Program-made: the position numbers and the translations under genes
The notes under the pieces: generated by a model
Told to the model about the DNA's origin: nothing
Database searches by the model: none
What the model saw: only the letters and a program-made list of their open reading frames with translations
Part shown: positions 10,423-48,407 of the stretch, one piece after another
How the letters are laid out: every line of letters starts with the position of its first letter
Position numbering within the stretch: the first letter of the stretch is position 1
Assembly (NCBI GenBank): GCA_948144175.1
Contig: CANXME010002492.1
Location: 144,982-208,981 of the forward strand
DNA: 64,000 nt
From: Closterium sp. NIES-65
Taxonomy: Eukaryota; Streptophyta; Zygnematophyceae; Desmidiales; Closteriaceae
Direction of reading: 5' to 3'

Positions 10423-13400
10423 TACATTACTTTGTATAGTGTAACATTTCACTTGGTGTAGGCCCTTGTGAAGGGTAGTTTCGAGAACCTTCGTGGTTGG
10501 GGACAGTGTGGCACTGTTACACATCACTGTACCTCGGCTCTTGGGGTTTGTAGGAGCTGGGAGTCATTCCCAACTCATAACTCTTCCTATCTTATGTTCT
10601 AAGACTTTAGTGGCTGCCATAGTGCCGTTCGTTCAAACCAACGCTGTATCGTCAATATTTGGTGAAATCGTGTGACCTAAAATGCTTATTGTGTGTGACA
10701 TTAAGACGCTCTAGATCCAATTAGAATCAGGTTATTTGAAGCCGTGACCAGAACGCTATGAACGTTCAAAGCCGCTGTGCAGAAATCTAACTGTGCACTC
10801 TATCTTTCGTTCTAGGCACATTCAAGCCTATTGTGACTATAACAAGTGGTGTCAGAACGCCTTGGACCAGCTTGGATGATGGCTAGACCTGAATAAAGGG
10901 GTGATAGAGGTGCTGGAGGCAGTGGAGGACCCCAAGCACAAGGTCAACCCCGTGATTCAGCAATGGCACCCGTGCAACCTACTCTTGGACCTTCTAGGGA
11001 TGAACCAAAAGTGTTTGGGCTTGACAAGTTCAACTGGGCTTGACAAGTTCAACGGCGACAATTTTGCTGAATGGTCCTTTCGAATGGAAAACGTGTTTGA
11101 CCACTATGACCTGCTGGAGGTGATGGAAGGAACGGAGAAGCGTCCCGAGAACGACCCGGAGAAGAGCCCGTGGGTGCGGAAAGCGCACAAGGCTACCTCC
11201 TACTAGGGCAAGCATTGGGGAGCAGGCAAATCCGTCACATCAAGCCTTTCCAGCGTGAACCAGAGAAGGGACCAAAGGCATGGGCTGCTCTCAAGGGTGT
11301 ACATGCTCCTACAACAGCAGCGGTAGCGGTGGTGTTGGAACGGCAAATGGCGACATTACGTATTGAAGAAGATGAACCCGTGGAAGAAGGGGTGCAGAAA
11401 TTCTTCGACTTGTTGACGCGGCTTGAAGGAGCGGATCTCAACTATAGTGAGCTCCAGAAGAAGACCAAGTTTCTGGCCTTACTCCCAGAGTCATGGTCCT
11501 CGCTCATCATCAACCTAAATCGCGACTTACCTCAGCTCTCGCTCAAAGACGTAAAGCGAACAATCCTTCAAGAGGATTTCTGCCGCCGGGATTCGGCGAG
11601 TGCGGATGGCGCCGGAGCAGCAAGCGTCGGCCGTGGAAGGGGCAGAGGACGAAGGAAAGGCAGATTTGGCAGCAACAACTTCAATGGAGGCCTCGGGAGT
11701 GGCGGTTACGGCAGCGACGATAAGAGCTATGGACGCGGTCGCGGCCGATTCGACGGCGAGTGCCACTATTGCCACAAGAGCAGACACATGTGGCGCGATT
11801 GCTACAAGCTCCCTGATGGATGGAACCCTGCTCAAGGCCAAGAGGGTAGAGGAGCAGGAGGAGGGAGAGGAAGAGGCCGTGGAGGCAGTGGTGGTCGCGG
11901 AGGTGGCGCTGCAAACATGAAAGGCGGAGACAACGAGAGCGAGTCGAGGGACGATCGCTTTCCGGGTCAATTCTTGTGAGAGTACGACGGCTTATGCCAG
12001 CTATGCTTGCTTGCCTTTACTTTATTATGCTATATCTAGCATAGGATAATTATATGCATGCATGAATTGCTTGCTTTCCTAGGCTTGGTGCTTTCCTATA
12101 TTATATTATAGTTATAGCACCGAGCTAGGTTTCGTGCACCGAATTCTGGGCTTTTTGGTTGCCACCAAATTGCCTTCTACCGAATTCGGGAAGGATCTGT
12201 TCGGGATGCTTTGCGACCCGCGGAACCTTCGCGTAACACCTGGTTACGGGGCCTTGTGTCGAGCCTATATATAGCCTCGTGTTGTACCCTAGTGATCATT
12301 CAATTCAAACTCTCTTTTCTGAGCTCGATCCTAGATCCTCACAATTCTTCTTCGTGTCGACGCAAGCGCCGACTGCACCAGAGAAGGATGAAGGCTTTAA
12401 TGAACCAGCAGCTGTGGGGAAGGTGACCCTACACTCCTTGGACTATTGGGTGATCGATAGCGGCACTACCTAGAGCATGACACCTCGCGCGGACTTGCTC
12501 ACCGAACTCGAACCGTCACCGGTGAAGCATGTCACATCGGCTTTGGGGAAGCAAAGAGGTGAAAGGCATGGGCAAGGCCATGTTCAAGGGTGCTAATGGG
12601 AAGATGGTGGGCCTCAAGAACGTGCTTTGGGTGCCCAACCTTTCTGCGAACCTGATTTTCGTGTGGCGGTTGCAAAAGGCCGGCATGAACACCAGCTCGA
12701 AGGGAGCCAAGACCTACACCGCAAGGCTTGGCGAGCAGATCCTTTGGGACCTTCATGAGAATAGGGACGTCTACAACGAGATGTGGCAGATCCCAGTGGT
12801 CCCCATGCCAAAGGAGAGGCAAGTGGCAGCAAGCGTCAGCACCAAGGGTGAAGCGATTGGTAGCGGCGATGGAGCGAACGGTCGTGCTAAGGAGATTGAG
12901 TCCAAGAAGTGCTATCTTGGAGGGACCAACATGCTTTGTGAACACGAGGAGAGTGGTGTAGCAGCCAAGAAGCAGCACAAGGGTGAGGAGAACCCGAAGG
13001 CAGCAGCGGAGGAGGACTACGGAGAGAGCATGTGGGGCGCTATTGCGAGCGCGGCATTCTCCAATTCGACTTCGGCTACGGGGGAGTGTGATTGGCTCAC
13101 CTTGCATCGGCGCATGGGGCATGTGGCCCTGCCTATTTTGCAGCAGCTAGTAAAGCGAGAGATGGTTGCTGGCATACGTGTGAAGGGGGAGCCCGATGAG
13201 GTACTTGGCTGCACGACGTGCATGCAAGCCAAGTTCACCCGTTTCCCGTTCTCGAGTTCGGAGGCAAGGGCTAAGGCACCACTTGATGAGGTGGTGATGG
13301 ACGTGGTAGGCCCCTTGAAGCTTGGAGCTGCTCGAGCTGAGTATTTCCTCATCATATTAGATGTCTACACCCGCATGACTTGGGTGTATGTGCTGTCCAA

Positions 13401-15352
13401 GAAGAGCGACGTGGCTAAAACCGTGAAGACCGATTGGTTGCCGATGGTGGAATGGCAACAAGACCGGCTAGTCAAGTCAATCCGCACTGATCGAGGAGGC
13501 GCGTTCCTGAGCAAAGAGTTCGGATTGTGGCTGAAGAAGAATGGGATAAGGCACTCCCTTACCATGCCATACTCCCCTGCAATGAACGGCATCGCCGAGC
13601 GAGCGCACCGGACCATCACGGAGACGGCATGTGGCTATCCGACTATCTCTGGCCTGATGCGGTCCGGAGCGCATGTGTGGCCAAGAACAGAGCCATAACT
13701 CATGTGGGAGCAGACAAATGGGTGCCCTATGTGGAGTGGATTGGAAAGAAGCCAAAGGCGGATATGCTTCGGGTGTTCGGGTGCATGTGCATGGCGCTCG
13801 TGCCTAAGCATCTTCGGCACAACAAGCTTGGTGCCTAGGCGATATGGGCTGTGCACTTGGGCATGGCTCAAAACAGCAAGGAGTGGCATCTTTGGGACCC
13901 ATTCACAAAGAAGTTCTTGGTGAGCAGGGATTGCAAGTTCATGGAGAACCCGATGTACCAGCATAGGAAGGCGGAGAACAAGGTGAAGATAGGCGCACGG
14001 TTTGGGGAGGTGAAGAGTTCCGACCTGGAGCATGTGGAGCTGCCTTTGGAGCTGAGTAGTGGAAGCACAACCACAAGGCAATCTTCCTTTGTGAATGGGG
14101 GAGAGGAGGCCAAGGATGCAGAGGAAGAAGAGGAGGAGGTGCAGCAAGTGAGTGAGCGTGCACCGACACTTCCTTCACGCGCTACAAGTGCTCCACAGAT
14201 CCAATGCCAAGGCCTTCAAGTCCCTGCATCTGAGGAGGAAGGAAGGGGCAAGAGGAGAGTTCAAGCCCCTAATAGGCTGACCTATGATGCACCAGGAAAG
14301 CAGGGCAAGTCAGCCCTGGCCGGAGCGGCAAGGATGGTCAGAGATGACGAGGAAAGCGGGTACGAGGAGTGTGCCTTCGTGTTCTTCTCTCCGGTGGAGA
14401 TGCCGGGAGAACCAGCAACTCTCAAGGAGGCCTTGGAGAGTAATGATGCTGAGGAGTGGAAGAAGACCATAGAGAGTGAGCTGAAGAGCATTGAGGAGAA
14501 CGACACATGGGAATTGGTGGAGCTACCAGAGGGGCGTAAGGCAATAACGTCCAAGTGGCTCTTCAAGATCAATTCCGATGCCAACGGCAAGATCGAGCGC
14601 TACAAGTCTAGGCTTGTGGCCAAGGGGTACTAGAAGAAGGAGAAGGTGGAATTCAAAGAGCTGTTTGTTCATGTGGTGAAGCCGACAATGCTGCGGACCC
14701 TACTCGCGGGAGCTGCCATCAAAGGATGGGTGGTGAAGCAGACGGACGTGACAACCGCGTTCCTCAACGGGATTCTTGAAGAAGAGATTTTCTTAGCGTA
14801 GCCAGAGGGGTTTGATGATGGCAGTGGCGGAGTTTTGAAGCTGAAGAAGGCCTTCTATGGGCTGAAGCAGGCCCCTAGGCAATGGTACTTGAAGCTGCGT
14901 GAAGTGTTGGAGGAGATCGGCTTCACTCCCTCAACGGTCAATCACTCCTTGTTCATGCTCAGCGAGGGGGAGCAGAGGACCTTCATGGAGGTCTATGTGG
15001 ACGACATTCTCATTTTCTCACCCTCCTCTGACCTTGTGAAGGAGGTGATGCTGAAGCTTCAGGACAAGTTCAAGTGCAAGGCACTTGGCGACGTGAACTT
15101 CTACCTCAGGCTCCACATCGAACGTGATGTGGAGAAGCGGTGCATGCGGGTGCACCAACGCAAGTATCTGAAGGCGTTGGCTGCCAACTTTGGGCAAAGT
15201 GAAGGCCATGTGGCTACACCCTTTCCCTCTAGGTTCAAGTGTGTGAAGGAACCAGAGGAGGAGAGCGTTGGTGAAGACGAGAGGCGCCATTTTCACTCGT
15301 TGGTGGGTAGCCTCATGTATGCGGCAATAAACATTCGGCCGGACGTTGCCTT

Positions 15353-21700: not shown

Positions 21701-22190
21701 GACTTCTTTGTCTGTCGTTCCACCAGCACCAGCCACTTCTAGAACTTCCGCAGCACGTCGCTCTTCTTAGCGACCAGTATCACCCACACAAACTGAGTGT
21801 AGCGATCCTTCAGCAGCAGGAAATACAAGCTGCCATCCTTGGCAGCCACCCAAAATGGCCCGCACAAGTCAATGTGCACGACAGCAAGTGCCTCCTCGGC
21901 GTCCGAGCCCTTGTCGGGGAAGGTGTGCCACGCCATCTTCCCTCCGACGCACGAGACACACGGCGGATCTGCTCCGGTCGACGGCGTGATGTCGAGCCCA
22001 ACGGCAACTTCATGCTTTGCCGAGCTCTTGATCGTGTCGACGCCGACGTGCGCGAGCCTCGCATGCACCAGGGCAGGGGTTGTCTTCGTCGCTGAGACAA
22101 TTGTCCGCAGAGCCACCACCTCAGTCGACGGGGACCACGTCGAGCAGGGGCGAAGGTCGGTGCAGAGGACTCGTCCGGTGTAGCGTGCTA
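17698..22190 (-). mobile_element. Copia element A, 5'-truncated, minus strand
   Basis: Fossil Ty1/Copia element closely related to element B. In coding order it has the end of GAG-pre and integrase (about 22.19-21.3 kb), reverse transcriptase (about 20.5-19.7 kb; MKNRWVLTTKYRIDD and LDLNLMHLDMKNAFLQSKL) and RNase H (about 19.5-18.9 kb), then a purine tract and a 1071-bp LTR (18768 down to 17698). Gag and protease are absent and the left side abuts host DNA near 22190. Broken, with a handful of breaks. Confidence 0.75.
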
Positions 22191-22199
22191 GACCGCAGG

Positions 22200-22400
22200 G
22201 TAGGGGCGAGAGACGAGGAGGGAAGAAATAAGGCAGGAACGGAGTAAGGACCAGAATGCAAGAGAACGACAGGGTGGGCATGGCATGGCACAAAACAGGG
22301 CACCGAAAAACAGAAGGGTGCAGCAGAGAAGAGGGGAACATTAGAGAGCACATAGCAGGGAAGGGCAGGTCAGGGCGGGGCAGGCCAGAGCAGGGCATGG
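22200..22400. other. Purine-rich low-complexity host sequence
   Basis: Repetitive GGGCAGG/AGCACATAGCAGGG-type sequence between truncated element A and the TBC exons. No gene is visible. Confidence 0.4.
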
Positions 22401-22446
22401 GTGCAGTATGGAGTAGGCCTTGATGACGTTGAAGAGCGAGTGCTGG
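22400..22446 (-). CDS. TBC-domain exon fragment (second copy of the NV-I-AYS motif)
   Basis: After a good acceptor (CATCTCTCACCAG, minus strand) the frame reads QHSLFNVIKAYSILHP. TBC domains have the motif L-NVL-AYS-DPEVGYCQG at this place, where a Rab-GAP packs its catalytic helices. It parallels the exon at 22552-22650 (SNVINAYS), so it is either a duplicated exon or a decayed copy. I do not see a clear donor. Confidence 0.5.
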
Positions 22447-22551
22447 CTGGTGAGAGATGGAAGCAACAAGGCAGGGAGCAGCAGGGAGCAGCAGCAAAGA
22501 GCACATAGCAGGGAAGGGCAGGGGAAGGGGGGTGGGGGCGGGGGGGCGCAC

Positions 22552-22650
22552 GGAGTAGGCGTTGATGACGTTCGACTGCTGGTAGGCGCCCCTCTCCTCC
22601 TCAAAAGACGGTGGTTGAGGAAGGTGCTGTTGATGTCCCGCTCTATATTC
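22552..22650 (-). CDS. TBC-domain exon (Arg-finger side), frame disturbed
   Basis: Acceptor CTGGCAG at 22651 and donor TACTCC/GTGCGC. The first frame reads NIERDINSTFLNH and the second, one base out, reads SFEEERGAYQQSNVINAYS. TBC domains have I-D--RTF--H--F---G---L-NVL-AYS here, so both parts align and a single missing base near the CACCGTC junction explains the change of frame. This means a decayed copy or a sequence error. The exon is minus strand, whereas the end of the same domain (48.4-51.7 kb) is plus strand. Confidence 0.6.
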
Positions 22651-23082
22651 CTGCCAGCAGGGCGGGGGAAGGGGTTGGGGGGACCAGGATGAATGGGAGG
22701 GATGGGGTATGCAGTGATAAGAGAGGGCAAAAAGGTGGAGGGGGGGCAAGAGAACTGTTTGTCTGGCCTACCACGAGCGTGTGTGTGGCCTGCCACAAGT
22801 GTGTGTAGGGGCGGGAAGCTCACTTGGCGTGTGTGTGTGTGGGGGCGGGGAGCTCACCTGCAGCGGCGTAGCTGCTGCGATCCGCCAAGGTGTCTTGGCG
22901 GTATGAGGAGAAGGGGAAGGAGAGGGTGCGAGGGTGAGGGAGAGCGTGAGGGGGGGACGGTGAGTGGGAGAGGGTGAGGGGGAGAGGTTGAGGTGTGGTA
23001 GGTGTCATGTGCATTGAGGCATAACCAAGCAGAGGTGCATGTTGTGGCAGAGCAGGCAAGGCAACAGCATCAGCACGTGCAC

Positions 23083-23638: not shown

Positions 23639-26600
23639 TGTCAAATTATAATGTTGTCTAGGCTTTAGTGGGGTAGCCCATATGGGGTACACATTTCTAG
23701 GGTTGCATATTTGTATCACTCTCATTCCATAGTCATTCCATCCTCGTTTCAGTTTTCTCATGGTATCGAGCAGGTTCCCTCGTGGGAAATGTTCCTAGGG
23801 CCCTACTACTGCTTCCGCTGCTACTCGATCTGTCGCACGCCCCGTGGCGTGCGACCTATTTTCATCTCGATTTTCTTTCTGGAGCGCGCCCCGAGGCGCG
23901 CGGCCCCGCTACCCCGTCGCGCCGCCCTAGCGGCCGCGTCGCGCCGCCCTCGCGGCCCCGATCTGCCGCCCTAGTGGCCTCGTCACCTACCTCTGCGGCC
24001 TCAGCGCCGCCCTTCCCGGCCCCGGCTCCGCCCTTCCAGGCCCCGGCGCCACCTCGGCTGGCCCCGTCGCCTACCCCGGCGACCCCAACGCCGCTCTTCC
24101 CGACCCGGCCCCGCCTCTACTGGCCCCGTCGCCTACCCCTGCGGCCCCGGCGCTGCCCTTCCCGGCCCCGGCGCCACCTCTGCTGGCCCCGGCGCAGCCT
24201 CTGCTGGCCCAGACGCCTACCCTGCGGCCCCGGCGCCACCTCAACTGGCCCCGTCACCGCTCCACCCGGCCCCGCCGCCATCCCCAAGCGGCCCCGCCGT
24301 CACCACCGAGCCGCCGGCGCCGCCGAGCTAGTGCCCAGCCACCCGAGTCACCCGAGCCGCCCGAGCCGCAGCGCCACCTCAGCCGCCCGAGCCGCCGAGT
24401 CGCCGAGCCGCCGCGCTGCAGTTGCTGCCGAGCCACCGTACCGCTGAGTCGCCCGAGTCGCCCGAGCCGCCGAGCCGCAGTTGCTGCAGTGCCGCCGTGC
24501 CGCCAAGCCGCCCGAGCCGCCCGAGCCGCCCGCACCGCCGAGTCGCCGAGTCGCCGAGTCGTCGAGCCTGCTCTTCCCACCACTGGTGAGCCTCTGCCTT
24601 ACTAGCGCGCTGCTTGCCGCTTGCTTGGCTGCCTGCCTTACTGCGGCTACTCCTGCTCCTGCTTCTACTGGCGGAGCCAGATGCAGCCCCAGCGACGTCC
24701 GCGTGAGTCCCTCACGCCCCAGCAGCTGCGTGAGTGGTACGCTGGTTGGGGTTGTAGGGGTGGCGGCGCTACTAGTGCTACTACTACTGGCGGCGTCCAG
24801 ATGCAGCTCCAGCGACCCCCACGCACGTCTCTCACGCCCCAGCAGCTTCGTGAGTGGTACGCTCAGAGTGGAGGGTCTCTCAGTTCTGTTCGCTGCTCTT
24901 ACGTGATTCGCACTAGTGCTCGGACTGGTCAGCCTTGTGGGACGCCTAGTCACACACAGTCCCGCTGCTTCGCCCGTTTGAGCGACGCTTGGCGTACCGA
25001 GTTTGGCGACGAGGCTGAGCTCCCCGACTGGGTGGAGTTGCTTAGGCAGAGGGTAGATATATTTTCTCTTGACTATGATGCTATTCTCACTGCCATGTAT
25101 GCATTGCCTACTAGTGCTGACCGTGCCGGTCACCTCTGCGTACCGCCTGACCCGGGTATCGAGCCTGCTGCTCTAGCTGCTGGTGAGGCTGCTGCTCTGG
25201 GTGCTAGTATGTCTCCTGCTCCAGGTACAGGTGCGGCTGCTGCTCTAGGTGCTAGTGAGTCTCCTTCCTCAGGTGCGGGTGAGTCTGCTCTCTCAGGTAC
25301 CGCGTCGGCTCCGGCCTCTCACACCTTCACCCTTGACTCGGGGGCTTCCCACTCCTTCTTTCGAGACCGCACCACACTCACGCCGCTTGGTCGGCCAGTT
25401 GCAGTCTCTCTAACAGACCCCTCTAGGGGCCCTGTCCTTGCTCACTTCTCCACTGTCCTCCCGTGTCCGGCGGCCCCCTCTGGCACCCTGTCTGGTCTTT
25501 ACCTCCCCTCGTTCTCTACGAACTTGGTGAGTGGTGCTGACCTGCCGGATGCGGGGGTTCACCAGTTCACTCCTGCGAGTCAGCGGGTGACCCACCGCAC
25601 GGACGCTCGGACAGGCCGACACCTGGCCACGTTTACACGTCGGCCGGGGTCAAGCCTGAACACACTGACCACTGCGTCTCCTCCAGTCCCTGCGTCTGGT
25701 CAGGTAGCTGCGTCGGGTCAGGTGTTAGCTACAACGTCTAGGTCTGGTCCTGAGTCTGCCCCCTGCTCGTGTCGCCTCCTGTCTCACGAGACTCTCCTCT
25801 GGCACCACCGCCTTGGTTACCCCTCCCTGCTTCGTCTCCGAAGCATGGCCTCCGGTGTCCTTGTCTCTGGTCTTCCGCGGTCCCTCCCTCCCCTTCCTCC
25901 GGGGCCTGGCCCTACCTGCGTCCCCTGTGTCGAGGGGCGGCAGCGGGCTGCCCCTCACACCTCCCAGTTTCCTCTGACAGAGGCCCCGCTGCAGACGCTT
26001 CACATGGACGTGTGGGGCCCGGCCCGCGTCCGTGGACACGGTCACGAGCGCTACTTCCTGTTGGTGGTTGACGACTACTCGCGTTACACCACAGTCTTCC
26101 CCTTGCGCAGCAAGGGTGATGTCACTGAGGTGTTGATCGATTGGATCCGCGCAGCTCGTCTCCAGCTCAGGCGGAGCTTCGGCTCGGACTTTCCTGTTCT
26201 GCGTCTGCACTTTGACAGAGGCGGAGAGTTCTCCTCTGGCCTTCTGCGAGCCTACTGTCGTGCACGAGGCATCCGCCAGACCTTCACGCTTTCGAACTCT
26301 CCACAGCAAAATGGGATTGCTGAGTGCCGCATTGGCATGGTCATGGACGTCGCCCGTACGTCCATGATGCATGCGGCTGCCCCCCATTTTCTGTGGCCGT
26401 TTGCGGTCCGGTACGCGGCGCATCAGATCAACCTTCAGCCCAGGGTCTCCATGCCGGAGACCTCCCCAGCCTTGCTGTGGACGGGGAAGATCGGCGATGC
26501 GTCTGTGTTCCGTGTCTGGGGATCTCGGGCGTTTGTTCGCGGCTTGTCTGCGGACAAGCTGTCCCCTCGTGCTGCTCCTTGCGTCTTCCTGGGTTTCCCC

Positions 26601-29600
26601 CCTGACGCGCCAGGGTGGCAGTTCTACCACCCCACCTCTCGCCGTGTTCTGTCCTCCCAGGACGTCACGTTCGACGAGTCGGTCCCCTACTACCGTCTCT
26701 TCCCCTACCGCACTCCGTCCCTCCCCCCGCCACCGCTCTTCCTTGTGCCAGGTCCCCCCCCGGTAGACCCCCTCCCCCCTCAGGGTCCTGCCCCTTCAGG
26801 TGTGTCCCAGGTAGACGCTGTCGAGCCTGTCGAGGTCGCTGGTGACTCTGGTGCTGCTGAGGGTGCTGAGCCTGGGGGTGCTGACTCTGGGGGTGCTGAC
26901 TCTGGGGGTGCTGAGCGTGTGGGTACTACGACTAGGGGTGCTGAGCCTGGGGGTGCTGAGTCTGGGGGTGCTGAGCCTAGGGGTGCTACGCCTGGGGGTG
27001 CTGAGCCTGGGGGTACTGAGCCTGGGGGTGCTACGCCTAGAGGTGCTGAGCCTGAGGGAGCTGAGCCTGCTTGTGGGGCGTCTGGTGGTGCTGAGCCTGG
27101 CGGTTCTCCGGGTGCTTCGTCTCGCCGGGAGCCACTCTCTCCACAGGAGCTGCGTGAGTGGTTTGCCCAGCGCTGGAGGCGAGCTGCTGGAGCTGGAGGT
27201 GCTGCGGGTACTGGAGGTTCTGCTGCTGCTGAGGGTGCTACTTGTGCTGCTGGAGGTACTGGAGCTGGAGGTGCTGCTGGTGCTGGTGCTACCACTGGGG
27301 GTCCTGGTGCTGTCCCTGCTGTGTCTGGAGTCGCAGTGCGGCCTCGACCGTACTTCGTTACGCTCCTTCAGCAGGTTCTTGGTCTCCCGCCTTCTACTGG
27401 TCCACCTCCCTTAGAGTGTCCACAGCCTGTCCCGTCACAGTTACAGTTACAGCCGGCCTCCCCACTGCCTGCTCCTTCTCCCTACACTGGTCCTACTGGA
27501 GGTCTTGCTGAGTGTCGTGAGCCTGCGTCTCGTCCTGCGTCGCCTGTTCGTGCTGCTCGCGCTAGTGGTCGCGGTTCGCGTCAGCGTCCTCCTCCTGTCC
27601 CTGGCACGCACCGGATGTCTCTGCGTCCGTCCACTGCTCCTCTGCGTGCCCCTTTGCCTTCTCCTCCTGAGTCCTCTCTTCCTGCCCTTGCCGACCCGGA
27701 GTCGGACTCTCTTCGTGCTGCCAGTCCTACTGTCACGCGTCTTCTTGCTACTGTCGTCACTGACCTCTCCTTTGAGTCCACTGCTGCGTCTGCTCTTGTT
27801 GCTGAGCTCGTCGACTTTGCTGCTCGCTGTCGCCTAGACTACGCTGCTAGTCTCGTTGCTGAGTCTGCGTCTGTCTGTCCTCCGTCCGTCGGGGGTGAGT
27901 GTGCTCTTGGCACGGAGATCCTTGAGGAAAGGCAGGAGGAGTTCCAGTGTCTGGCAGCTGCTTCACCTCATCTCGTGTCCGTACTGCTTACCCCTGAGGG
28001 AGACCCGGATGCACTTGACATCCCGACTCCGCGCTCTTACGCGGAGGCCGTAGAGGGTCCCTACTCCTCTCAGTGGCAGGCAGCTATGGATGCAGAGATG
28101 GCTTCCTGGAAGTCCACAGGCACCTACGTTGACGCGGTTCCCCCACCTGGGGCGAACATCGTCAGTGGCATGTGGATCTTCAGGGTGAAGCGGCCGCGTG
28201 GCTCTCCGCCTGTCTTCAAGGCGTGGTACGTGGCTCGTGGCTACGGTCAGCGGCAGGGAGTTGACTACTTTCAGACCTTCTCTCCCACCCCGAAGATGAC
28301 CACTCTTCGGGTGCTGCTACACATAGCCGCTCAGCGTGACTACGAGCTTCACTCCCTTGACTTCAGCACTGCTTTCCTGCAGGGTAGCCTGCACGAGGAG
28401 ATCTGGCTGCGCCGTCCACCTGGCTTCACTGGGACTTTCCCTCCTGGCACCTAGTGGAGCCTCCGACGGCTAGTCTACGGTCTTCGCCAGGCACCGCGCG
28501 AGTGGCACGACACACTGAGGACTACGCTTGCGGCTCTTGCGTTTGCTCCCTCTACTGCTGATCCGTCGCTGTTTCTACGCACCGACACCTCTTTGCCGTT
28601 GTTCTACATCCTCGTGTACGTCGACGACTTGGTCTTTGCCACTGCTGACACTCCTGGACTCGCCCACGTGAAGTCCGAGCTGCAGAAGAGACACACGTGC
28701 ACAGACCTGGGTGAACTGCGCAGCTACCTTGGCTTGCAGATCACCCGGGACAGAGCACGCTGCACCATTACCCTGACTCAGTCACACATGGTGCAGCAGG
28801 TCCTTCAGCGCTTCGGCTTCACGTACTCCTCGCCTCAGGCCACTCCTCTGCCTACTCGCCACTCGCTCTCAGCTCTGCCTTCGGATGAGTCCATAGAGTC
28901 GAGTTGTCCGTATGCAGAGCTTGTTGGCTGCCTCATGTACCTGATGACCTGCACACGACCTGACCTTGCATACCCTCTTAGCATTCTTGCACGCTATGTT
29001 GCTCCTGGGAGACACAGACCAGAGAACATGGCTGCAGCGAAGAGGGTGTTGCGCTACTTATGCAGTACGTCGGGCATGGGGCTAGTGCTTGGAGGGCAGA
29101 GTCTAGTGGTCCTCACTGGGCACGCGGACGCTTCTTGGGCTGACGACCAGGCTACGCAGCGGTCGTCACAGGGTTACACCTTCAGCCTTGGTTCCGGCTC
29201 TGTTTCGTGGCGGGCTACTCGCTCGTCTTCTGTTCTCGGCTCCAGTTGTGAGGCCGAGATCTACGCCGGGGCCATGGCTGCACAGGAGCTTCGCTGGCTC
29301 ACCTACCTGCTGACCGACCTTGGAGAGCCGCCTCGTTCTCTTCCAGTCGTGTACGTAGACAACAAGGCCATGCTGGCCTTGTGTCGAGAGCAGCGACTGG
29401 AGCACAGAACAAAGCACATTGCTCTTCGCTACTTCCTTGCTCGTGAGCTACTGCAGCGTGGTCAGTTGCGGCTTGCGTACGTGGCCTCTGAGGCCAACAC
29501 TGCTGATGTTTTCACCAAGGCACTTGCGCCTTGTGATCATCAGCGCTCTGTACTCAGCTTGGTCTTGTGCGTGTCTTGCCTCACTTGCTCACTTCTTGAC

Positions 29601-29929
29601 CTTGCTTGTACTGTCACATATATATACTCCTGCTCTTGCTTGCTTAGCCTCTAATATATATATGTGCTCCTGCATGTGAACTGGCCTTTTGGCCTTGAAC
29701 TTGTGCTCGGAATGTGTGGTGACTTTGTGATCCACCCTGAGCTTTGCTTTGCTTTGCTTGACTGGTCTTGTGACCCCTTGTTCTCCCCCACTTTGCCTAT
29801 GGGGGTGTGTCAAATTATAATGTTGTCTAGGCTTTAGTGGGGTAGCCCATATGGGGTACACATTTCTAGGGTTGCATATTTGTATCACTCTCATTCCATA
29901 GTCATTCCATCCTCGTTTCAGTTTTCTCA
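23639..29929 (+). mobile_element. Copia element F, young, nearly whole
   Basis: Fossil Ty1/Copia element with perfect 5-bp duplications GCAGC (23634-23638 and 29930-29934) and 122-bp LTRs (23639-23760 and 29808-29929) that look identical base for base, implying recent insertion. A primer-binding site (TGGTATCGAGCAGG) follows the 5' LTR and a polypurine tract (TATGGGGGTG) precedes the 3' LTR. The coding region runs from about 24.6 to 29.65 kb: protease (TLDSGASHSFFRD), GAG-pre (WHHRLGYPSLLRL), integrase (HMDVWGPARVRG), a variable linker of GGAEP-type repeats (26.86-27.1 kb), reverse transcriptase (YVDDLVFA) and RNase H. I find no classical gag core in the GC-rich 5' leader. About one break. 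Confidence 0.9.
26860..27095 (+). repeat. 15-bp coding repeats in the pol linker of element F
   Basis: Tandem units like GGGGGTGCTGAGCCT encode Gly-Gly-Ala-Glu-Pro-type repeats between integrase and reverse transcriptase. The period is a multiple of three, so length can drift without loss of frame. Confidence 0.8.
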
Positions 29930-38449: not shown

Positions 38450-38870
38450 CTTGTTCCCCTTGCCCTCTCCGCCTCCCCTTGCCCTATCCGCCTCCCCTTG
38501 CCCTCTCCGCCTCCCCTTGCCCTCTCCGCCTCCCCTTGCCCTCTCCGCCTCCCCTTGCCGTCTCCGCCTCCCCTTGCCCTCTCCGCCTCCCTTTGCTCTC
38601 TCCGCCTCCCCTTGCCCTCTCCGCCTCCCTTTGCCCTCTCTGCCTCCCCTCTCCCTCTCCGCCTCCCTTTGCCCTCTCCGCCTCCCCTTGCCCTCTCCGC
38701 CTCCCTTTGCCCTCTCCGCCTCCCCTTGCCCTCTCCGCCTCCCTTTGCCCTCTCCGCCTCCCCTTGCCCTCTCTGCCTCCCCTTGCCCTCTCCGCCTCTC
38801 CTTGACCTCTCCGCCTCCCCTTGCCCTCTCCCCCTCCCCTTGCCCTCTCCCCCCCTTTGCCCTCGCTCCC
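38450..38870. repeat. 18-bp minisatellite
   Basis: About 23 copies of CTTGCCCTCTCCGCCTCC with few variants. Because 18 is a multiple of three, long frames are open on both strands, but they are repeat artefacts. No splice or family evidence for a protein. Confidence 0.9.
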
Positions 38871-38922
38871 TCCCCTTGTGTGCATCCCATGCCCTCTTGT
38901 GCACACACGGTGTGAGTGTGGA

Positions 38923-39062
38923 AGCTAACACCCCAGGCAAGTGCATGGCATGGCATGGCACGCAGTGTGGAAGCTAACACCCCAAGCTAACACCCCAGGC
39001 AGGTGGGTTTCCACGCTCTAGCTGTAGAGACCTACGGCTACCCGTTGCCTGGGGTGTTAGCT
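38923..39062. repeat. Short inverted repeat
   Basis: AGCTAACACCCCAGGCAA at 38923-38940, with a partial direct copy near 38970-39000, recurs inverted at 39045-39062. Between the arms is GGCATGGCATGGCA. A hairpin or foldback remnant; function unknown. Confidence 0.6.
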
Positions 39063-39072
39063 TACCTTCAGC

Positions 39073-39135
39073 AGTGTGTATCACCGTGTGTGCATCACCG
39101 TGTGTGCATCACCGTGCGTGCATCATCGTGCGTGC
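39073..39135. repeat. 14-bp minisatellite, left remnant
   Basis: A few copies of GTGTGTGCATCACC, the same unit as the large array at 47105-48225. The Gypsy element G lies between the two parts, so it appears to have inserted into this satellite. Confidence 0.75.
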
Positions 39136-39137
39136 TC

Positions 39138-40138
39138 TCGGAAATCTCTTGGCTCCCCTGCCTCTCTGTTACCCACTCTGCCATGCTCGTCTTGCTCTGT
39201 TGCTCTGCAGTGCTCCTGTCTGTTCTGGACACGGTGCTGATGCTTTCTCTGCCCCTCTTCTGGCTCATGCTTGCCTTGCCTCCTTGTTCGGGGCTCTGCT
39301 TGATCCAGCATGGCATCCAGAAAACCTCACTAACCCATCTAGGCCGACTAGCTGGCTCCTGCTATTCTTGATTCTACCCGTGTTGGTTTAAAAGGATTAC
39401 ATTGAGAAAAAGCAGGAAACATACAACGAAGCACCTAGCACTAGGGCTCAGTAGCTCTATGTACAAGATGAGATTGACTGCCCTAGCCTAGTGCTTCAGC
39501 GGAAAGGACAGACAGAGATCATGCGTGAGCGAGGCTCGGGCTTCCCGAGTCGTATGTACAAGCCGCTGGCGGTTTGGGGCTGCATGTGGTTTGGCACCAG
39601 AAACTGTGCCAGCTGCCCGGTTTTCTCGCATGTGCACTTGCAGCCCTCGCCACCTGTCGGCCGTGCTGCTCGTATCCTCGTTAGCAGCGCTCGCCCTGCC
39701 ACAGCACAGAATAGCATTCATACAAAGAAAACACGCAAACCCCCCCCCAAAACCCTCTCCCGACATTCACTTGCTCAAGGCTCGTCCTCGCTATGGTACA
39801 AAATATGTACACCGCAGCCCGTTCGTGTGCTGCTCCTTGTTCCGCTTACACTTGCCCCAATGAAACCCATCTCACTGATTTGTCATGCACACGCCTTATG
39901 CCACAGCTGCTGTCTCGGCATAATGTTGCCCTCCATGGTCTACATAATACCGCGACAGCTGTCGGAAATCTCTTGGCTCCCCTGCCTCTCTGTTACCCAC
40001 TCTGCCATGCTCATCTTGCTCTGTTGCTCTGCAGTGCTCCTGTCTGTTCTGGACACGGTGCTGATGCTTTCTCTGCCCCTCTTCTGGCTCATGCTTGCCT
40101 TGCCTCCTTGTTCGGGGCTCTGCTTGATCCAGCATGGC
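39138..40138. repeat. 177-bp direct repeat flanking the 3' LTR of element G
   Basis: 39138-39314 and 39962-40138 are near-identical copies (TCGGAAATCTCTTGG to CAGCATGGC) on either side of the LTR at 39315-39957. One copy is the 3' end of the element interior and the other lies outside the LTR. No such copy adjoins the 5' LTR at 47.1 kb. It may record a recombination or template-switch event at this end. Confidence 0.8.
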
Positions 40139-43100
40139 CACTCACTTGCCCCCTTTGGAGCTGGCTACGGCTCCTGCATGCCCAGCTCCAGACTTCCAGA
40201 GCTCCTGGTGCGAGCTCGGGCGGTGTTCGTGGCATGATCCCTGACCCGTCGCCCTTGCTGATTCTCCAGCACTACGACTCCAGACTCCTTGGCTTCCACC
40301 ACCTTCCACCGTTCTTCGCTCAGACCGCGGTCCAGGACAGTCTGCCGCGCCGTGCGATGATACACCTCTTGCCCCTGCTGCAACTGCTCTACCCCGGGCG
40401 TGCGTTGTCCCCCCAACCGCTCCTGGTACCTGTGTGCATCGCGCAGCTGTGCCACGTGGAGATTTTCCATGGCCGATGGCAGGAGTGCCCGCAGATAGTC
40501 CCCTCGCACCTTCGCCAGAGCGGCCCACAGCTCGGGTGCACCTGCTGTCACGACGTCAGTGAGCACCCTTGGAGCTCCCACTGGCAGTATGGGCTCCCGC
40601 CCATACAACAGGTAATAGGGGGAGGCGTCTCGTAGTGCCGCTTGCTTGCTGAAACGGTACCCAGCCGCCACCCAGTGCAGATCCTCGTCCCATGTGCGCC
40701 GGTGGGCCTCCCCATATGCCCTCAGGCCGCGCTTGAGGGTCTGCACCATCCGTTTGGTGAGCCCGTCAGCCTGAGGATGGTAGCGGGAGGTCCTGCGATT
40801 CGTGATCCCAATTGCGGTCAAGGCTCTGTCGAATTCTCCGCGGAACTCTGTGCCTTGATCGGTGAGCACCTCCCCACATGCTCCCATCCGAGTGAGGACC
40901 TGCTCTGTGAACGCCTCTGTCACCAGGGCCGCGCTCTTACTGCTGAGGGCCCGTACCTCCACCCACTTGCTGACGTGCTCGATCATTACCAGTATGTACT
41001 TCTTGCCACGGCGGCTCAAGGGTAGCTCCCCCGCCATGTCGAGGGACCATCTGTATCCTAGTCCGCGGATGGGTAGGGATTGCAGCTGCTGCTGGCTGCG
41101 CTCCAGCTGGGCTCGGTTGCGGTCACAAGCCTCACACTGCCCCACATGCTCCCGAATCTGCCGCGCCATGCCTGCCCACCACCACCCTGTGTTGACCAGC
41201 TGGGTAGTCCTGATATGCCCGAAGTGGCCCAACTGCTGATGCACTCGGCGAATGATGCCCTCGCGCTCTGCTGGCGGCGGAACTAGCTTCCATCCCTCCC
41301 TCGTTCTCAGCTGGACCTGCCCCGCGTACCACCTGTAGTGCTGCCCTCGTGCTCGTGCTCTTTCTGAGGCTGGTTCTTCCGCTTTGGTCTCCCCTCTGAG
41401 CCACCTGAGCGTCTCCTCGTCCAGCCAGATGTCTGGCGCCCCCCGCTGCTCCTCCTGGCGCTCCCCTTGCCTCTCTGCCTCTCTCGTCAACGCCACCAGG
41501 CTCGCCACCGGCTCTGCGGGTGGAGGGTTGCGAGACAGCCCGTCGACGTGCTGCAGCGTACGGCCTGGCCTCTGTTTGACCACGAAGTCGGACTCCTGGA
41601 GCCTCATTGCCCATCGTGCATTCCGCCCGGTCAGGGTGTGGTTGGTCATGAGCCATAGAAGGGGCTGGTGGTCAGTAACCAGTGTGAACTCGCGTCCTTG
41701 CAGGTAGACTCGGAAATGCGTCACTACCCACACCGCCGCTAGCCCCTCGCCTTTGTAAGAGCTGTAGTTTGCTTCTGCCGCGTTGCAGCTGCGGCTGGCG
41801 AACGCCACCACCCTTTCTCCTTCCTCCCCTTGCTGGCAGAGCACTGCCCCCATGCCTGCGCTGCTCCAGTCCAAGTAGAGAGTGAACCTACCCTCTGGTT
41901 TCGGCAGCAGCAGCACAGGCCCTGACTTTACCGCGTCCAGCAGATCCTGTAATGCCCCCTGCTCCGTTGCCCCCCATTTCCACGCCACATCTTCCCTTAA
42001 GAGCTGATTAAAGCTGGCGGCCCGCTTGCTGAAGTTGGGCACGAATTTGCGGTAGTAGTTCAGAAAGCCCAGGATGGCCCTGAGCGCCGTCCGGCTCTCG
42101 GGCACCGCCAGCTTGTCTAGCACTGCCACCTTCGCCTGCTGGATCGTCATCTGCCCTCTGCACACCTCAAACCCGAGGTATTGCACCGTCAGTGTCCCGA
42201 ACCTGCACTTTTTGGGGTGGCAGGTTAGTCCTGCTGCTTTGATCACCTCAAGCACCTGCCCGACGTCCTTTACGTGCTCCTCCGCGGATGAGCTGTACAC
42301 CACCACGTCATCGATATAACAGGCTGCGCAGTGCTGCAAATTCCTCAGCACCCGGTCCATGGCTTTCTCGAAGACTGCAGAGGCGTTCTTCAGGCCGAAT
42401 GGCATGAAGAGCCATTCGTACAACCCATCTGGCCCGTGGAATGCGGTTTCCTTCACGTCAGCCTCCGCAATGCGTATCTGGTTAAAGCCCTGTCGAAGAT
42501 CTAGCGTGCTGAACACCAGTGCCCCCTGCAGCTTGTCAAAGATTTCTTCTGGCGTCGGCATGGGGTAGCGGTTGGCCACGGTCGGTTTGTTGAGGTCTCG
42601 ATAGTCTCCACACATCCGGCGCGACAGGATTCCTCCGGTGAGCTCCTTCCTTGCCGCCACCACGGTTGCGGTTGCGTACTCTCACTCTGAGGGCCTGATG
42701 AGGCCCGCCTCCAGTAGCTCACGGCACTTCTCCATGCACACCTCCAAATCCCTCGGGCTCATCCTCGGCTTGCGCTGGTACACCGGTATCTCTTCCGTCA
42801 GCCTTATCTCCATCTCTCCTCCCCTGTACTTGCCTAGCTCGAGTAGGGTGAAAGCAAATGCCTGTCTGTTTTCTTTCAGTATCACCCTCATCTGCTCCTT
42901 CAGCTCCCCCGTGAGGCCTTCGTCCACCTCCCAGTGTACCTCTTGCTCCATCTGCCGCTCTCTCGGTGCTTCGGCTGGGATAGGGTTGTGCTCTGGTCCC
43001 CGCGCTATTTCCTTCCTGGCCGCTTCGGATGTCTCAGCCTGCGCCCTCCTGGTTGCTCCCTCCGCCGCTGGTTCTTCTCCTGCCGTTCCTTGCTGCATCT

Positions 43101-46100
43101 CTTCTTCTGGTGGTTCGATCCAGCTTTCTCCTGCGAGGGCTCCTCCGCTGCTAGCCGCGTCTGCTGCGAGGGCTCCTCTGCTGTGGCCGCTCCATCTGAA
43201 GTTCCGACAGGATCTGCTCTGCCCTGCGCTGGCTGGCACCCACCTTCTCCTCTGTGTCACCCCCTGTGCCACCCACTTCTGCCTCCATTTCCAACTGCTT
43301 GGATGCCAAATGCATCTGAATCACATGCACCAGCCAGTGCATTGCCTCCGCATCCATTGCCCTCCCCAGGGCTTCACGCCTCGGCGTCTCTCCCACCTCT
43401 GCGGTTGCTGTTGCGTCCGGGAGAAAGCCCATCGCCAGCTCACGTTCCCTTACCGTCGGCTCCTCCCATAGATCCTTCATGCGGTCATACACCATCCCGG
43501 GCCCTGGCAGACCCTCGCTCCAGATGAATCCATGTGCCTCTGGGCGTGCCACCAACGTAGGCCACGCTTCTCGAGGTAGCCCTGGCTCGTTACACTGGAA
43601 CTGACTGGGGTGGTCCGGCTTGAGCACGGGGGCTGCCAGGCGGTGAGGTTCCAGGATGTCTTCCAGCGGGCGCGGCGCTGGCCTCTCAATTTGTATGAGC
43701 TCCCACCTCAGCTTTCCTTCCGACACCCCGTTTTGCCAATAGCGTCTCACTCGGTGTGAGTAAGATTTTTGCTGGACCGCGTCCCATGCCACCCCTGGCC
43801 CCAGTGCAGCTGCCACCACATCCTGCATGCGTCGCACTGGCTCCCTGCAGTCCGTGGAGAAGTCGGGATTCTCTAGGATGTACAGGTACTCTCCGTGCTG
43901 CTGATAGACCAGCTTCATCACCCACAGCAGCTCCAAAAACAAGGTTGACCTGGGGTCATCCAGCCCCTTGCCCTTTCCGGCTCTCGAGACCCCTTGGCAT
44001 TCCCACTCGGCCACCAGAAGGTCTACTGTCCCCCATCGCTTCACATCCTCCGGAGCCACCTCCCTGATGTCGTGTGTCATATCTTCCTCAGCTTCCGCCT
44101 CCACTCCTGCCATCATTTGCGTGGGGTAGATTCCTCTCAGCCTCTTCGCGTGGTGCATGGCCATGCGCCTCACCACTGGGTCGAGTTCCACGAGCACCCA
44201 TTTCTTCACTCTGCACCCTGCCTTGAGCGCCGCCGCCAGTCCGGTACCGACGCCTCGGAACAATTCCACAATGGTTAGGGGCTTCTGTAGCCTCTCCAGA
44301 TCCGTCATCCGTGGAGGCAGAGCGAGGGGCCTCTCTGCATTCTCTGCCTCTGCCCTTCGAGTCTCCTGCTCCAGCACGTATTGCCTCCAGGACCAGTCCT
44401 CTAGTTGCTCGTCCATCTCTGCCATGCGGGCTTGGAAGGCTCCTCGGGGCTCTCTTTTCACGAAGTGCACCGGCAGAGTACCCACCGGACCGTCATCTCG
44501 CCAGTACTGCGCACGGTATAACACTTTCTCCTGCCAGGTGCAGATGGTGGCGCCGATACGGTACAGCAGCTCCATGCCGATGAGCAGATCGTAATCTTCT
44601 GAGGGCGAGATCCCGCAGCGCATCCGGATTCGGCATTCGTCTTTCGATCCTGGCCGAAGGATCACTTCCACCGGCATGCGCGTGCACGGCATCCATTTCG
44701 GCTCTCCGCCTTCTGCCGTCATTACCAGTATGCCTCTCGTTATGAGCCTGTTCGGATGATCCAGCTCGAGCCTTTTGGCCAGGTCTTTCCCAAGCAGGAT
44801 ATGGTTTGCTCCGGTGTCGATGATGGCTTGCGCCACAGCTAGCTCGCCCACCGTGATGCCTCCCTTCTCTATGGTCAGTACCGACGGCTGACAAACCATC
44901 CTTTCCTTTGGGTGTCGTTCAGACGTCATCTCCTGCTCTGGTTCTGCCGCGTAACCCCGGAACCTTCTTATGACTCGGTCTGGCCGATCTGCGCGTCCCT
45001 GCCCATCGCTGCGGAGCCGGATCTCCTCCCTCTGTCGCGGTGCTTGCACCATCAGCACGAACTCGGCTTCGCTCCCTTCTCCCTCTTCTTCCTTCGCGAG
45101 CATAGCCGGCTCTCTCCGTGCACCGCCCTCCAGCTCTCGAATCCTTACCTGTAGCTGCTGAAGCGGATTCTCCAGAACTTCCTTGCTCCTCGGTCCTGCC
45201 GAGCCGGGCCGGCGACTGTAGCAATCCTGTGTGCGATGCCCGCGTCTCCCGCGGTTCCCGCAGCTAGGGATTTCGGGGCAGTCTCGGCGGAGGTGTCCCT
45301 CCTCTTGGCAGTGATCGCACTTCGGTGGCCTGCTGGAGTCCCTCTGCAGATGCCCCTCCTGGCCACACCGGTGACACTTGCGCGTCTCGGTCTCGCGCCC
45401 CGTCCTCCTGCCGGGAATTTCCCCCGTTGAAACGGCCGACCACGCGGGCCTGCGCCGCTCCTCCGGTTGCATCCCTCCCCTCTCCATTTCGTACAGCCGC
45501 AGACCCATCTCTTGCTTCTTGGCCAGCTCGTACGCGTGTTCCAGTGTGGCCGCCGGTCCCATCTCGAAGACTCTCCCTCGTACTTCACTTGCCACCCTTT
45601 CGTCCAAGCTGTTTAGGAATTTCGTCACGAGCCTCCATTCGTCGCGACACTCCATGTCTGAGGCTAGCTCCCGCAGTCGGCCATAGGTTGCCAGCAAGGA
45701 CTCTCCAGGCTTCTTCCGAAATTATGCGAACTCTTTCATCCGCTCAGGTGTCTGCACTGGGAAGTGTCGGCAAAGCGTCGCGAAGAACTGCGTCACCACT
45801 TCCCACGTGACCCCAGCTGCCGATTCGCTGAGCATGCGCTCCAATTCCATGCCGTACGCCGTCTCCGCTTCTCCCGTGACCGTGTTTGAAAGTCCTCAGA
45901 AAAAGTCTTCGGGCTCCAGCCCATCCTTCATCCAGCGGTATTGCGCGTTGCGGATCTGCATCATGCAGTTCTTAAGGCTGCTTCCCACGCCCGGAGTGCC
46001 TGCAAACCGTTCCGGCACCTCGATCTTTGGCAGCGCCGCATACCGCACAGGCGGGCGCATGACCTCGGTGTTGTGATGTTCTGACAGGGAGAATCTCCTG

Positions 46101-47104
46101 GTCTGTCGGAGCAGCTCGCCTTCCGCACTCGTGCCTTGTGCGGCATCTCCGCTCCGCGGCGGCTCAACGGTCTCACCCACTTCTGCGAGGGGTCTACCGG
46201 ACGAGCTGTGAAAGGCGTCAAGCCCCCCGGTCGGCAGGTCACTCATGCTGTGCCTCCGATGCGGCGCCGTGTACGCTTCTCTCGTCGGCGCGCCTCCAGA
46301 TCCTCCTGCTTGCGTGCCGACGGTCTCTCCCACCGCGTCTCCTGCTCGCCATCCTGGAGTCGCCATCACCGGCGGATCCGGAGGCAATTCGTATCATCTT
46401 CCAGAGCGTAGCTGCATTCACCGATGCGTCCTATCTTGTGGTGAGATTTCCTTCGTCGTATGTCAGAAAACCTCACTAACCCATCTAGGCCGACTAGCTG
46501 GCTCCTGGTATTCTTGATTCTACCCGTGTTGGTTTAAAAGGTTTACATTGAGAAAAAGCAGGAAACATACGACGAAGCACCTAGCACTAGGGCTCAGTAG
46601 CTCTATGTACAAGATGAGATTGACTGCCCTAGCCTAGTGCTTCAGCGGAAAGGACAGACAGAGATCATGCGTGAGCGAGGCTCGGGCTTCCCGAGTCGTA
46701 TGTACAAGCCGCTGGCGGTTTGGGGCTGCATGTGGTTTGGCACCAGAAACTGTGCCAGCTGCCCGGTTGTCTCGCATGTGCACTTGCAGCCCTCGCCACC
46801 TGTCGGCCGTGCTGCTCGTATCCTCGTTAGCAGCGCTCGCCCTGCCACAGCACAGAACAGCATTCATACAAAGAAAACACGCAAAACCCCCCCCCAAAAC
46901 CCTCTCCCGACATTCACTTGCTCAAGGCTCGTCCTCGCTATGGTACAAAATATGTACACCGCAGCCCGTTCGTCTGCTGCTCCTTGTTCCGCTTACACTT
47001 GCCCCAATGAAACTCATCTCACTGATTTGTCATGCACACGCCTTATGCCACAGCTGCTGTCTCGGCATAATGTTGCCCTCCATAGTCTACATAATACCAC
47101 GACA
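39315..47104 (-). mobile_element. Ty3/Gypsy element G carrying a cytosine-5 DNA methyltransferase domain
   Basis: Fossil LTR element on the minus strand with LTRs at 46461-47104 (5') and 39315-39957 (3'), about 640 bp each and differing at about ten sites by eye, so fairly young. In coding order: gag (about 46.39-45.4 kb), zinc knuckles (45.4-45.2 kb), aspartic protease (AQAIIDTGANHILLGKDL, about 44.8 kb), a methyltransferase domain (about 44.29-43.3 kb), reverse transcriptase (about 42.9-42.0 kb; YIDDVVVYSSS), RNase H (about 41.95-41.5 kb) and integrase (HHCC finger and core, about 41.25-40.7 kb). It sits inside a 14-bp satellite present on both sides. A few breaks; otherwise nearly whole. 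Confidence 0.88.
43300..44290 (-). other. DNA (cytosine-5) methyltransferase domain within element G
   Basis: In the same open frame as the protease, the order of motifs of C5 methyltransferases is visible: motif I with AdoMet-binding TIVELFRGVGTG (about 44.26 kb), an acidic ELDPVVRR at the motif II position, the catalytic-loop cysteine in ECQGVSRAGKGKG (about 44.0 kb), motif VI ILENPDF (about 43.87 kb), motif VIII SHRVRRYWQNG (about 43.75 kb), a target-recognition stretch, and the C-terminal VRERELAMGFLPD (about 43.45 kb). The FRGVGTG and DDPRSTLFLELL context is closer to DNMT3/DRM-like than DNMT1-like enzymes, by eye. Known role of the family: transfer of methyl from S-adenosylmethionine to cytosine C5 in DNA. 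Its role in the element is not shown. Confidence 0.82.
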
Positions 47105-48225
47105 GTGCATCTCCGTGCGTGCATCCCCGTGCGTGCATCCCCGTGGGTGCATCCCCGTGCGTGCATCACCGTGTGTGCATCACCGTTTGTCCATCACCGT
47201 GTGTGCATCCCCGTGTGTGCATCACCGTGTGTGCATCCCCGTGTGTGCATCCCCGTGTGTGCATCACCGTGTGTGCATCACCGTGTGTGCATCACCGTGT
47301 ATGCATCACCGTGTGTGCATCACTGTTTGTGCATAACCGTGTGTGCATCACCGTGTGTGCATCACCATGTGTGCATCACCGTGTGTGCATCCCCGTGTGT
47401 GCATCCCCGTGTGTGCATCACCGTGTGTGCATCCCCGTGTGTGCATCACCGTGTGTGCATCCCAGTGTGTGCATCACCGTGTGTGCACCCCCGTGTGTGC
47501 ACCCCCGTGTGTGCACCCCCGTGTGTGCACCCCCGTGTGTGCACGCCCCCGTGTGCGCATCCCCGTGTGCGCATCCCCGTGTGCGCATCCCCGTGTGCGC
47601 ATCCCCGTGTGCGCATCCCCGTGTGCGCATCCCCGTGTGCGCATCCCCGTGTGTGCATCCCCGTGTGTGCATCCCCGTGTGTGCATCCCCGTGTGTGCAT
47701 CCCCGTGTGTGCATCACCGTGTGTTCATCACCGTGTGTGCATCCGTGTGTGCATCAGTGTGTGCATCCGTGTGTGCATCCCCGTGTGTGCATCCCCGTGT
47801 GTGCATCACCGTGTGTGCATCACCGTGTGTGCATCAACGTGTGTGCATCACCGTGTGTGCATCACCGTGTGTGCATCACTGTGTGTGCATCACCGTGTGT
47901 GCATCACCGTGTGTGCATCACCGTGTGTGCATCACCGTGTGTGCATCATCGTGTGTGCATCACCGTGTGTGCATCACCGTGTGTGCATCCCCGTGTGTGC
48001 ATCACCGTGTGTGCATCCCCGTGTGTGCATCCCCGTGTGTGCATCCCGGGTGTGCATCACCGTGTGTGCATCCCCGTGTGTGCATCACCGTGTGTGCATC
48101 CCCGTATGTGCATCCCCGTGTGTGCATCACCGTGTGTGCATCACAGTGTGTGCATCACCGTGTGTGCATCACCATGTGTGCATCCCCGTGTGTGCATCAC
48201 CGTGTGTGCATCACCATGTGTGCAT
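47105..48225. repeat. 14-bp minisatellite array
   Basis: About 80 copies of GTGTGTGCATCACC with CATCCCC and CACCCCC variants. A block near 47550-47650 has GTGTGCGCATCCCC. The 14-bp period is not a multiple of three, so the long Cys/His/Val-rich frames are artefacts. It probably lies in an intron of the TBC gene, upstream of the exon ending at 48855. Confidence 0.92.
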
Positions 48226-48407
48226 GCGTTTATATCAATGTGCATGTGCTTGCATATGTCATGTGCATTCATGTGTGAGAATGCCTGTGAATGCCCGTGT
48301 GTGTGACTTCCCCTATGTGTGAATGCCCGTTTGTGTGAATGCCCGTTCGTGTGAATGCCCGTTCGTATGATTGACGATGTGTGCCCCTGTAGCCCCCACA
48401 CACACAG

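Follow-up and report, generated by a model that had tools for sequence, protein, structure and literature searches.

A degenerate Ty3/Gypsy-type retrotransposon with a DNMT3-like C5-methyltransferase in Pol, from a large element family of Closterium sp. NIES-65

Retroelements that carry a cytosine-5 DNA methyltransferase (C5-MTase) are already known, and the Ty3/Gypsy-type element of Closterium sp. NIES-65 considered here is of a kind with one of them, KnitGypsy-Dnmt3 of Klebsormidium nitens. In the consulted sections of de Mendoza 2018 (PMC5890265), that element is described as having the MTase in Pol, Gypsy domains, DIRS-like repeats, conserved key functional residues and a Ka/Ks below 0.2, with fewer copies in K. 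nitens than in Symbiodinium. The same sections describe SymbioDIRS-Dnmt3 of Symbiodinium, which combines a DNMT3-like MTase in Pol and A-coding-B-A-B repeats with a tyrosine recombinase, and SymbioLINE-Dnmt, a long interspersed nuclear element (LINE) whose C5-MTase belongs to an orphan lineage and lies in an open reading frame upstream of the reverse transcriptase (RT). In the consulted text of a 2025 paper (PMC12344493), some DNMT3s are likewise located in streptophyte and dinoflagellate retrotransposons, with Copia and DIRS given by name.

The Closterium element lies in a window of 64,000 nt (assembly GCA_948144175.1, contig CANXME010002492.1, forward positions 144,982-208,981) and is a degenerate copy of a Ty3/Gypsy-type retrotransposon with a DNMT3-like C5-MTase between protease (PR) and RT. 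Judged against the published description, it shares with KnitGypsy-Dnmt3 a Gypsy Pol polyprotein flanked by long terminal repeats (LTRs), a DNMT3-related MTase, the DIRS-type repeat order, a lack of introns, purifying selection and a streptophyte host, so that a reading made from the sequence alone (hereafter the sequence-only reading) was right to call the class an established one. It differs in its host, in its at least 150 MTase sites and in a GWECQG motif IV, a motif that the consulted text leaves unspecified for KnitGypsy-Dnmt3, the likeness being one of description and not of sequence. It also shares a retroelement-borne C5-MTase with SymbioLINE-Dnmt and the repeat order with SymbioDIRS-Dnmt3, from which it is set apart by an rve integrase, 4-bp target duplications and TG..CA ends. 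A search of the open-licence literature, which did not extend to the WEC motif, found no report of a DNMT-carrying Gypsy element from another streptophyte. What is new here is the host, the scale and motif IV; the kind of element is not.

The whole element, arranged A1-coding-B1-A2-B2, occupies 39136..47104 on the minus strand, the strand of all its parts given below, and begins with TGTC and ends with CCGACA (CCGAGA in the window copy). An open frame at 43151..45721 encodes the C-terminal part of gag with CCHC zinc knuckles, also matched in Pfam (best match at 45272..45322), an aspartic protease with the motif IIDTGA (44693..44833), to which retroviral protease models match under their cut-offs, and the C5-MTase domain (43277..44281), with a PF00145 match of E 1.1e-5 and 25.5 bits for a cut-off of 22 bits. 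The downstream frame (40165..42681) matches RVT_1, RNase H, the integrase zinc-binding domain (H2C2) and rve. The order PR-RT-RNase H-integrase, with RVT_1 and a DDE integrase, is that of Ty3/Gypsy elements. Two further parts, the N-terminal part of gag (45896..46393), assigned by position and family frames, and the linker to RT (42682..43320), matched no Pfam family. These matches bear out the proposal of a Gypsy element with a C5-MTase between protease and RT. Its claim that protease, MTase and RT share one frame stands for the first two and fails for RT in the window copy, where the linker is in the RT frame and out of frame with PR-MTase. The frame changes within the overlap 43151-43320, the RT frame has a stop at 42682, and the gag frame is interrupted both at 45896-45898 and immediately ahead of 45721, so that the window copy is broken. 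In two other copies read (L039 and L041), gag through RT forms one frame, and open frames of at least 2000 aa are listed for 33 of the 150 MTase-site rows scored in the host with a DNMT3B query.

Identification of the MTase was extended from the window copy to its family. PF00145 was matched by all 12 family members scanned (best E 6.7e-11), and the C5-MTase motifs occur in their proper order, namely I, IV with its Cys, VI with its Glu, VIII with its Arg, and X; the peptide motifs named by the sequence-only reading are likewise present and in order. Compared with the PDB, the single window domain matched DNMT3B (E 1.1e-5), while a profile built from the 12 members matched DNMT3A best (E 2.6e-15, 59 bits), followed by a DRM-type enzyme over motifs I-IV only (6e-9) and HhaI (1e-7). 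A structure model aided by 23 viral-contig relatives reached a predicted local distance difference test score (pLDDT) of 72.3 and a predicted template modelling score (pTM) of 0.74; in a Foldseek search with it, DNMT3-family structures appeared in all 50 matches listed, the best being DNMT3A (E 1.6e-10, TM by query 0.51). A single-sequence AlphaFold model was discarded for its pLDDT of 34.7. By profile and predicted fold, the element MTase is closest to DNMT3 among solved structures, at an identity of 15-19% to DNMT3 in Foldseek and 24-31% to viral-contig MTases. A rearranged, or permuted, motif order is the trait of DRM enzymes in the consulted text of PMC5890265. The element MTase has the canonical order and is therefore not DRM-like.

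Motif IV of the domain (WECQG, 43991..44005, catalytic Cys codon 43997-43999) is unusual. The usual form of this motif in C5-MTases is Pro-Cys. In 59 domain reads, from 57 distinct places of which some are haplotype copies, the catalytic Cys and the Trp are invariant (59/59 each), and the residue before the Cys is Glu in 58 and Gly in one; the context is AEWECQG in the window copy and AGWECQG in most relatives. The animal enzymes DNMT3A and DNMT3B and the DNMT3-like phage C5-MTases, which resemble the element MTase in motif order and fold, differ in having Pro at this position; the same residue stands there in each of the 27 viral-contig representatives and in the aligned sequences of DNMT3 and HhaI. 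This near-invariant change beside the catalytic Cys is a natural variant of an enzyme active site that is among the most closely studied. Elsewhere the catalytic residues are kept: the motif VI Glu is present in 58 of the 59 reads, with one gap, and the 29 reads without stops all have both this Glu and the three Arg of motif VIII (29/29), with one motif I Gly replaced.

The element clade is large, has recently inserted members and carries the MTase across the family. In the 874-Mb host assembly there were at least 54 matches to the PR-MTase frame, at least 123 to PF00145 and at least 150 to the DNMT3B query, counts that cover the best-scoring candidates only, hence the lower bounds, and that are inflated by haplotype duplicates. 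Fifty of the PF00145 matches were read: the first 30 loci comprised 28 element domains and two of a host chromomethylase exon (L031 and L032), and 19 of the 20 further matches had GWEC in the sense frame. Linkage to RT was followed in 57 RT matches, haplotypes pooled and the window's own copy included. An MTase with its catalytic region accompanies 50 of them, directly upstream in 49 and about 8 kb upstream in one (C222); five more have a truncated MTase, one has none in the sequence read, and in one (C1769) the listed match ends before the domain. By coordinates, 48 RT matches have a listed match at most 2.6 kb upstream, which by match range reaches the catalytic region in 45, is truncated before it in two (C1809 and C2237) and ends before the domain in C1769, and seven more that were read gave four full and three truncated domains. 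Absence of the domain from all other copies had been named beforehand as one outcome that would overturn the proposal, and these counts run against it. The two parts diverge together: over 39 loci, among which two places are entered twice, the identities of RT (first 110 residues) and MTase correlate with r = 0.90, a value reached in none of 2000 permutations. A mobile subfamily without the MTase was considered and rejected, since the truncated copies C1809, C2237, C27 and C1199 have a common 5' flank and so represent one insertion on several contigs. Among partial copies, the match breaks at different points in C1912 and C191, and C2230 is interrupted by other sequence of about 0.9 kb.

The terminal repeats are split. 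A1 (46461..47104) and A2 (39315..39957), which the sequence-only reading had taken as right and left LTRs differing at about ten sites, do differ, with 10 substitutions plus 2 gap columns in 644. Upstream of A2 lies a 181-nt segment (39958-40138) that recurs beyond A2 (39134-39314) with 2 substitutions in 181 and contains the repeats B1 (39960..40138) and B2 (39136..39314). Because the repeats are arranged as A-coding-B-A-B, the left end formerly set at 39315 missed B2 and must be moved to 39136. At the three loci with both ends read, the element starts with TGTC at A1 and ends with CGACA at B2 (the window copy again excepted), within 4-bp target duplications: GCAC for the window and contig C1833, CTTC for C1713 and GTAG for C343. 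In the window, GCAC was read at 47105..47108 on the 5' side of the element and at 39132..39135 on the 3' side, the latter being clearer in the second same-site contig (L046/L047). DIRS elements are not known to leave a target duplication and have a tyrosine recombinase; by its duplications and rve integrase the present element falls outside them. The C1833 contig has the same flanks as the window on both sides, by eye, and also holds the closest match (98%) to the window's Copia neighbour, so that it is probably the other haplotype of this insertion site. Counting the two as one, 11 loci with 3' ends were examined, and 7 (window/C1833, C1713, C343, C1871, C1726, C2346 and C1642) have paired B repeats in place of the plain LTR-coding-LTR ends of Ty3/Gypsy elements. 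B1 meets A2 in the junction GACA-GC-TGTC at six loci, and a G-rich purine stretch directly precedes B1 in the copies read. Separate inheritance of B1 and B2 was rejected, as in three further copies a copy's own B repeats were most alike. Contigs C382 and C995 have same-orientation copies spaced 7088 and 7064 bases, about one A-coding-B unit, which are perhaps tandem arrays or concatemer insertions. A ACATACAAGC-like sequence follows A1 (46421-46460) and recurs at the same place in two other copies.

The substitution pattern indicates that the MTase domain is under purifying selection. Among 28 distinct stop-free domains, the ratio of nonsynonymous to synonymous substitution rates (dN/dS) had a median of 0.13 in the 32 of 378 pairs with dS of 0.02-1.0, nearly all of them young copies of one subfamily and thus non-independent; one pair, at 0.60, takes in an apparently frame-shifted tail. 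Pooled over 10 young copies, dN/dS was 0.17 for the MTase versus 0.41 for the 690 nt upstream, the MTase being more tightly held than its neighbour. The recent activity proposed by the sequence-only reading suits other members better than the broken window copy: in two of them A1 and A2 differ at a single site, of 388 and of 511 respectively, although the B repeats of these two differ more, at 3 of 134 and 3 of 145. In the 10 young copies, the rate of private C-to-T and G-to-A changes, per site and copy, was 0.0044 in CG, 0.0036 in CHG and 0.0022 in CHH, against 0.0007 for A/T transitions. For the six copies closest to that of the window (L001, L003-L007) the same rates were 0.034, 0.028, 0.021 and 0.025, a small contrast, and for seven other copies 0.022, 0.012, 0.007 and 0.008. 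This footprint is consistent with CG/CHG methylation of the element family by whichever enzyme; as the host has its own chromomethylase, the footprint cannot tell which one acted. The chromomethylase exon (GGPPCQGVSGFNRFRNTE) has its start repeated nearby in the same locus, and its best PDB matches are 9mvy/7ubu/4fsx with 117 bits, the next having 55; 4fsx is maize ZMET2. The PsaB of the host scores highest against 8htu/9lut/6l35/7ksq (1587-1591 bits), of which 8htu, 6l35 and 7ksq are moss photosystems, and lower against 6ijj of Chlamydomonas (1495 bits), which together with the chromomethylase exon points to a streptophyte host.

Taken whole, the observations are probably best explained by a degenerate copy from a large Ty3/Gypsy clade with a DNMT3-like MTase in Pol, split repeats and putative methylation of its own cDNA. 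Inside the particle, or within the pre-integration complex, the MTase would accompany RT and integrase and would methylate the element's new cDNA in CG and perhaps CHG contexts, so that a new copy could come in already methylated in the manner of the host and be neither recognised nor damaged as unmethylated foreign DNA; this last idea is put forward as a hypothesis in the consulted part of de Mendoza 2018 (PMC5890265). From the position of the purine stretch before B1, reverse transcription would yield a cDNA with a conventional LTR of order B-A, and integrase may then act on a circular form of it, opening the palindrome where B meets A (GACA-GC-TGTC) and so producing the permuted A-coding-B-A-B arrangement.

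Several points weigh against this explanation. That the enzyme methylates its own copies or the host's DNA, or lets the element hide as heterochromatin, as the sequence-only reading proposed, would go beyond what the sequence shows, namely constraint and catalytic residues and not activity. The usual Pro-Cys of motif IV is missing, and the window copy is broken. In yeast, the KnitGypsy-Dnmt3 MTase produced no methylation, a result its authors deem inconclusive in the text consulted (PMC5890265). The footprint shows only weakly in the more diverged copies and was measured in MTase-carrying elements alone. As for the linkage, no MTase was seen in the sequence read for one RT relative (C2111:60426, L040), and for another, C1769, the listed match ends short of the domain. 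The model of a circle and its opening is drawn from the repeat order alone; paired B repeats were not found at 4 of the 11 loci (C1806, C729, C1072 and C676) within the stretches fetched, and inspection by eye of the sequence following A1 gave no tRNA-type (TGG-type) primer site.

The alternative that survives best concerns origin. The MTase may have been captured from a phage or bacterial-type C5-MTase and not from a eukaryotic DNMT3, independently of the host enzymes, a possibility we hold tentatively. With the element profile, three phage enzymes score 66, 70 and 81 bits against 59 for DNMT3A, a comparison in bits only since the databases differ; the phage motif IV-V (GSPCQGFSxAG...DPRSxLF) looks nearer to the element than that of DNMT3; and among the 150 matches listed for the DNMT3B query of the host none exceeds 39% identity, all 20 loci read being element domains. 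Against this, two-peptide-pattern scans, one with WECQG, gave 23 matches in IMG/VR and 47 in prokaryote contigs, none of them a relative, and in a tree the element MTases came together with DNMT3 and two phage rows at an open fork, the branches being long and the program giving a warning, with no plant DNMT3 or KnitGypsy included. A looser alignment recovered 465 viral and 8 bacterial relatives.

Less plausible is that the domain persists because it binds nucleic acid or protein, or that its substrate is RNA or something else other than DNA cytosine, with WEC marking the change. The near-fixed Trp, and the Glu where Pro is usual, would suit such a shift, yet the S-adenosylmethionine-binding motif I, the catalytic Cys, the motif VI Glu and the motif VIII Arg are all kept (stop-free reads, the single motif I Gly excepted), a retention difficult to account for unless methyl transfer takes place. 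Rather improbable as well is a joint reading in which the clade fixed a C5-MTase class with altered catalysis, Trp-Glu-Cys for Pro-Cys, with changed chemistry or target, and tied it to the integration of an LTR element that is circularly permuted and enters by way of an internal site resembling a circle junction, the cDNA being modified while still a closed circle and opened by integrase only afterwards. The idea that the MTase resembles one by chance, or is a piece of a host gene lying beside a Gypsy element, which the weak single-sequence PF00145 match could have suggested, is refuted, as the domain shares the protease frame, occurs across the family, co-diverges with RT and is under selection.

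The Gypsy family described here suggests that elements of this type with a DNMT are more than the peculiarity of a single alga and that, in another streptophyte, they can make up a large family under selection with recent insertions. With such a family, it can be put to the test whether a DNA-methylating parasite gains from methylating.

Around the element, long tandem arrays of a 14-nt (GTGTGCATCACC-type) and a 19-nt unit lie at 47106-48320 and about 38500-38940, the element being inside the 14-nt array. Copia-type pol pieces (RVT_2, rve and gag_pre-integrs) occur in the window at 12526-13698 (+), 21739-22767 (-) and 24606-29654 (+), the last having many genome relatives at about 90% identity. 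The host PsaA and PsaB frames are intact and adjoining.

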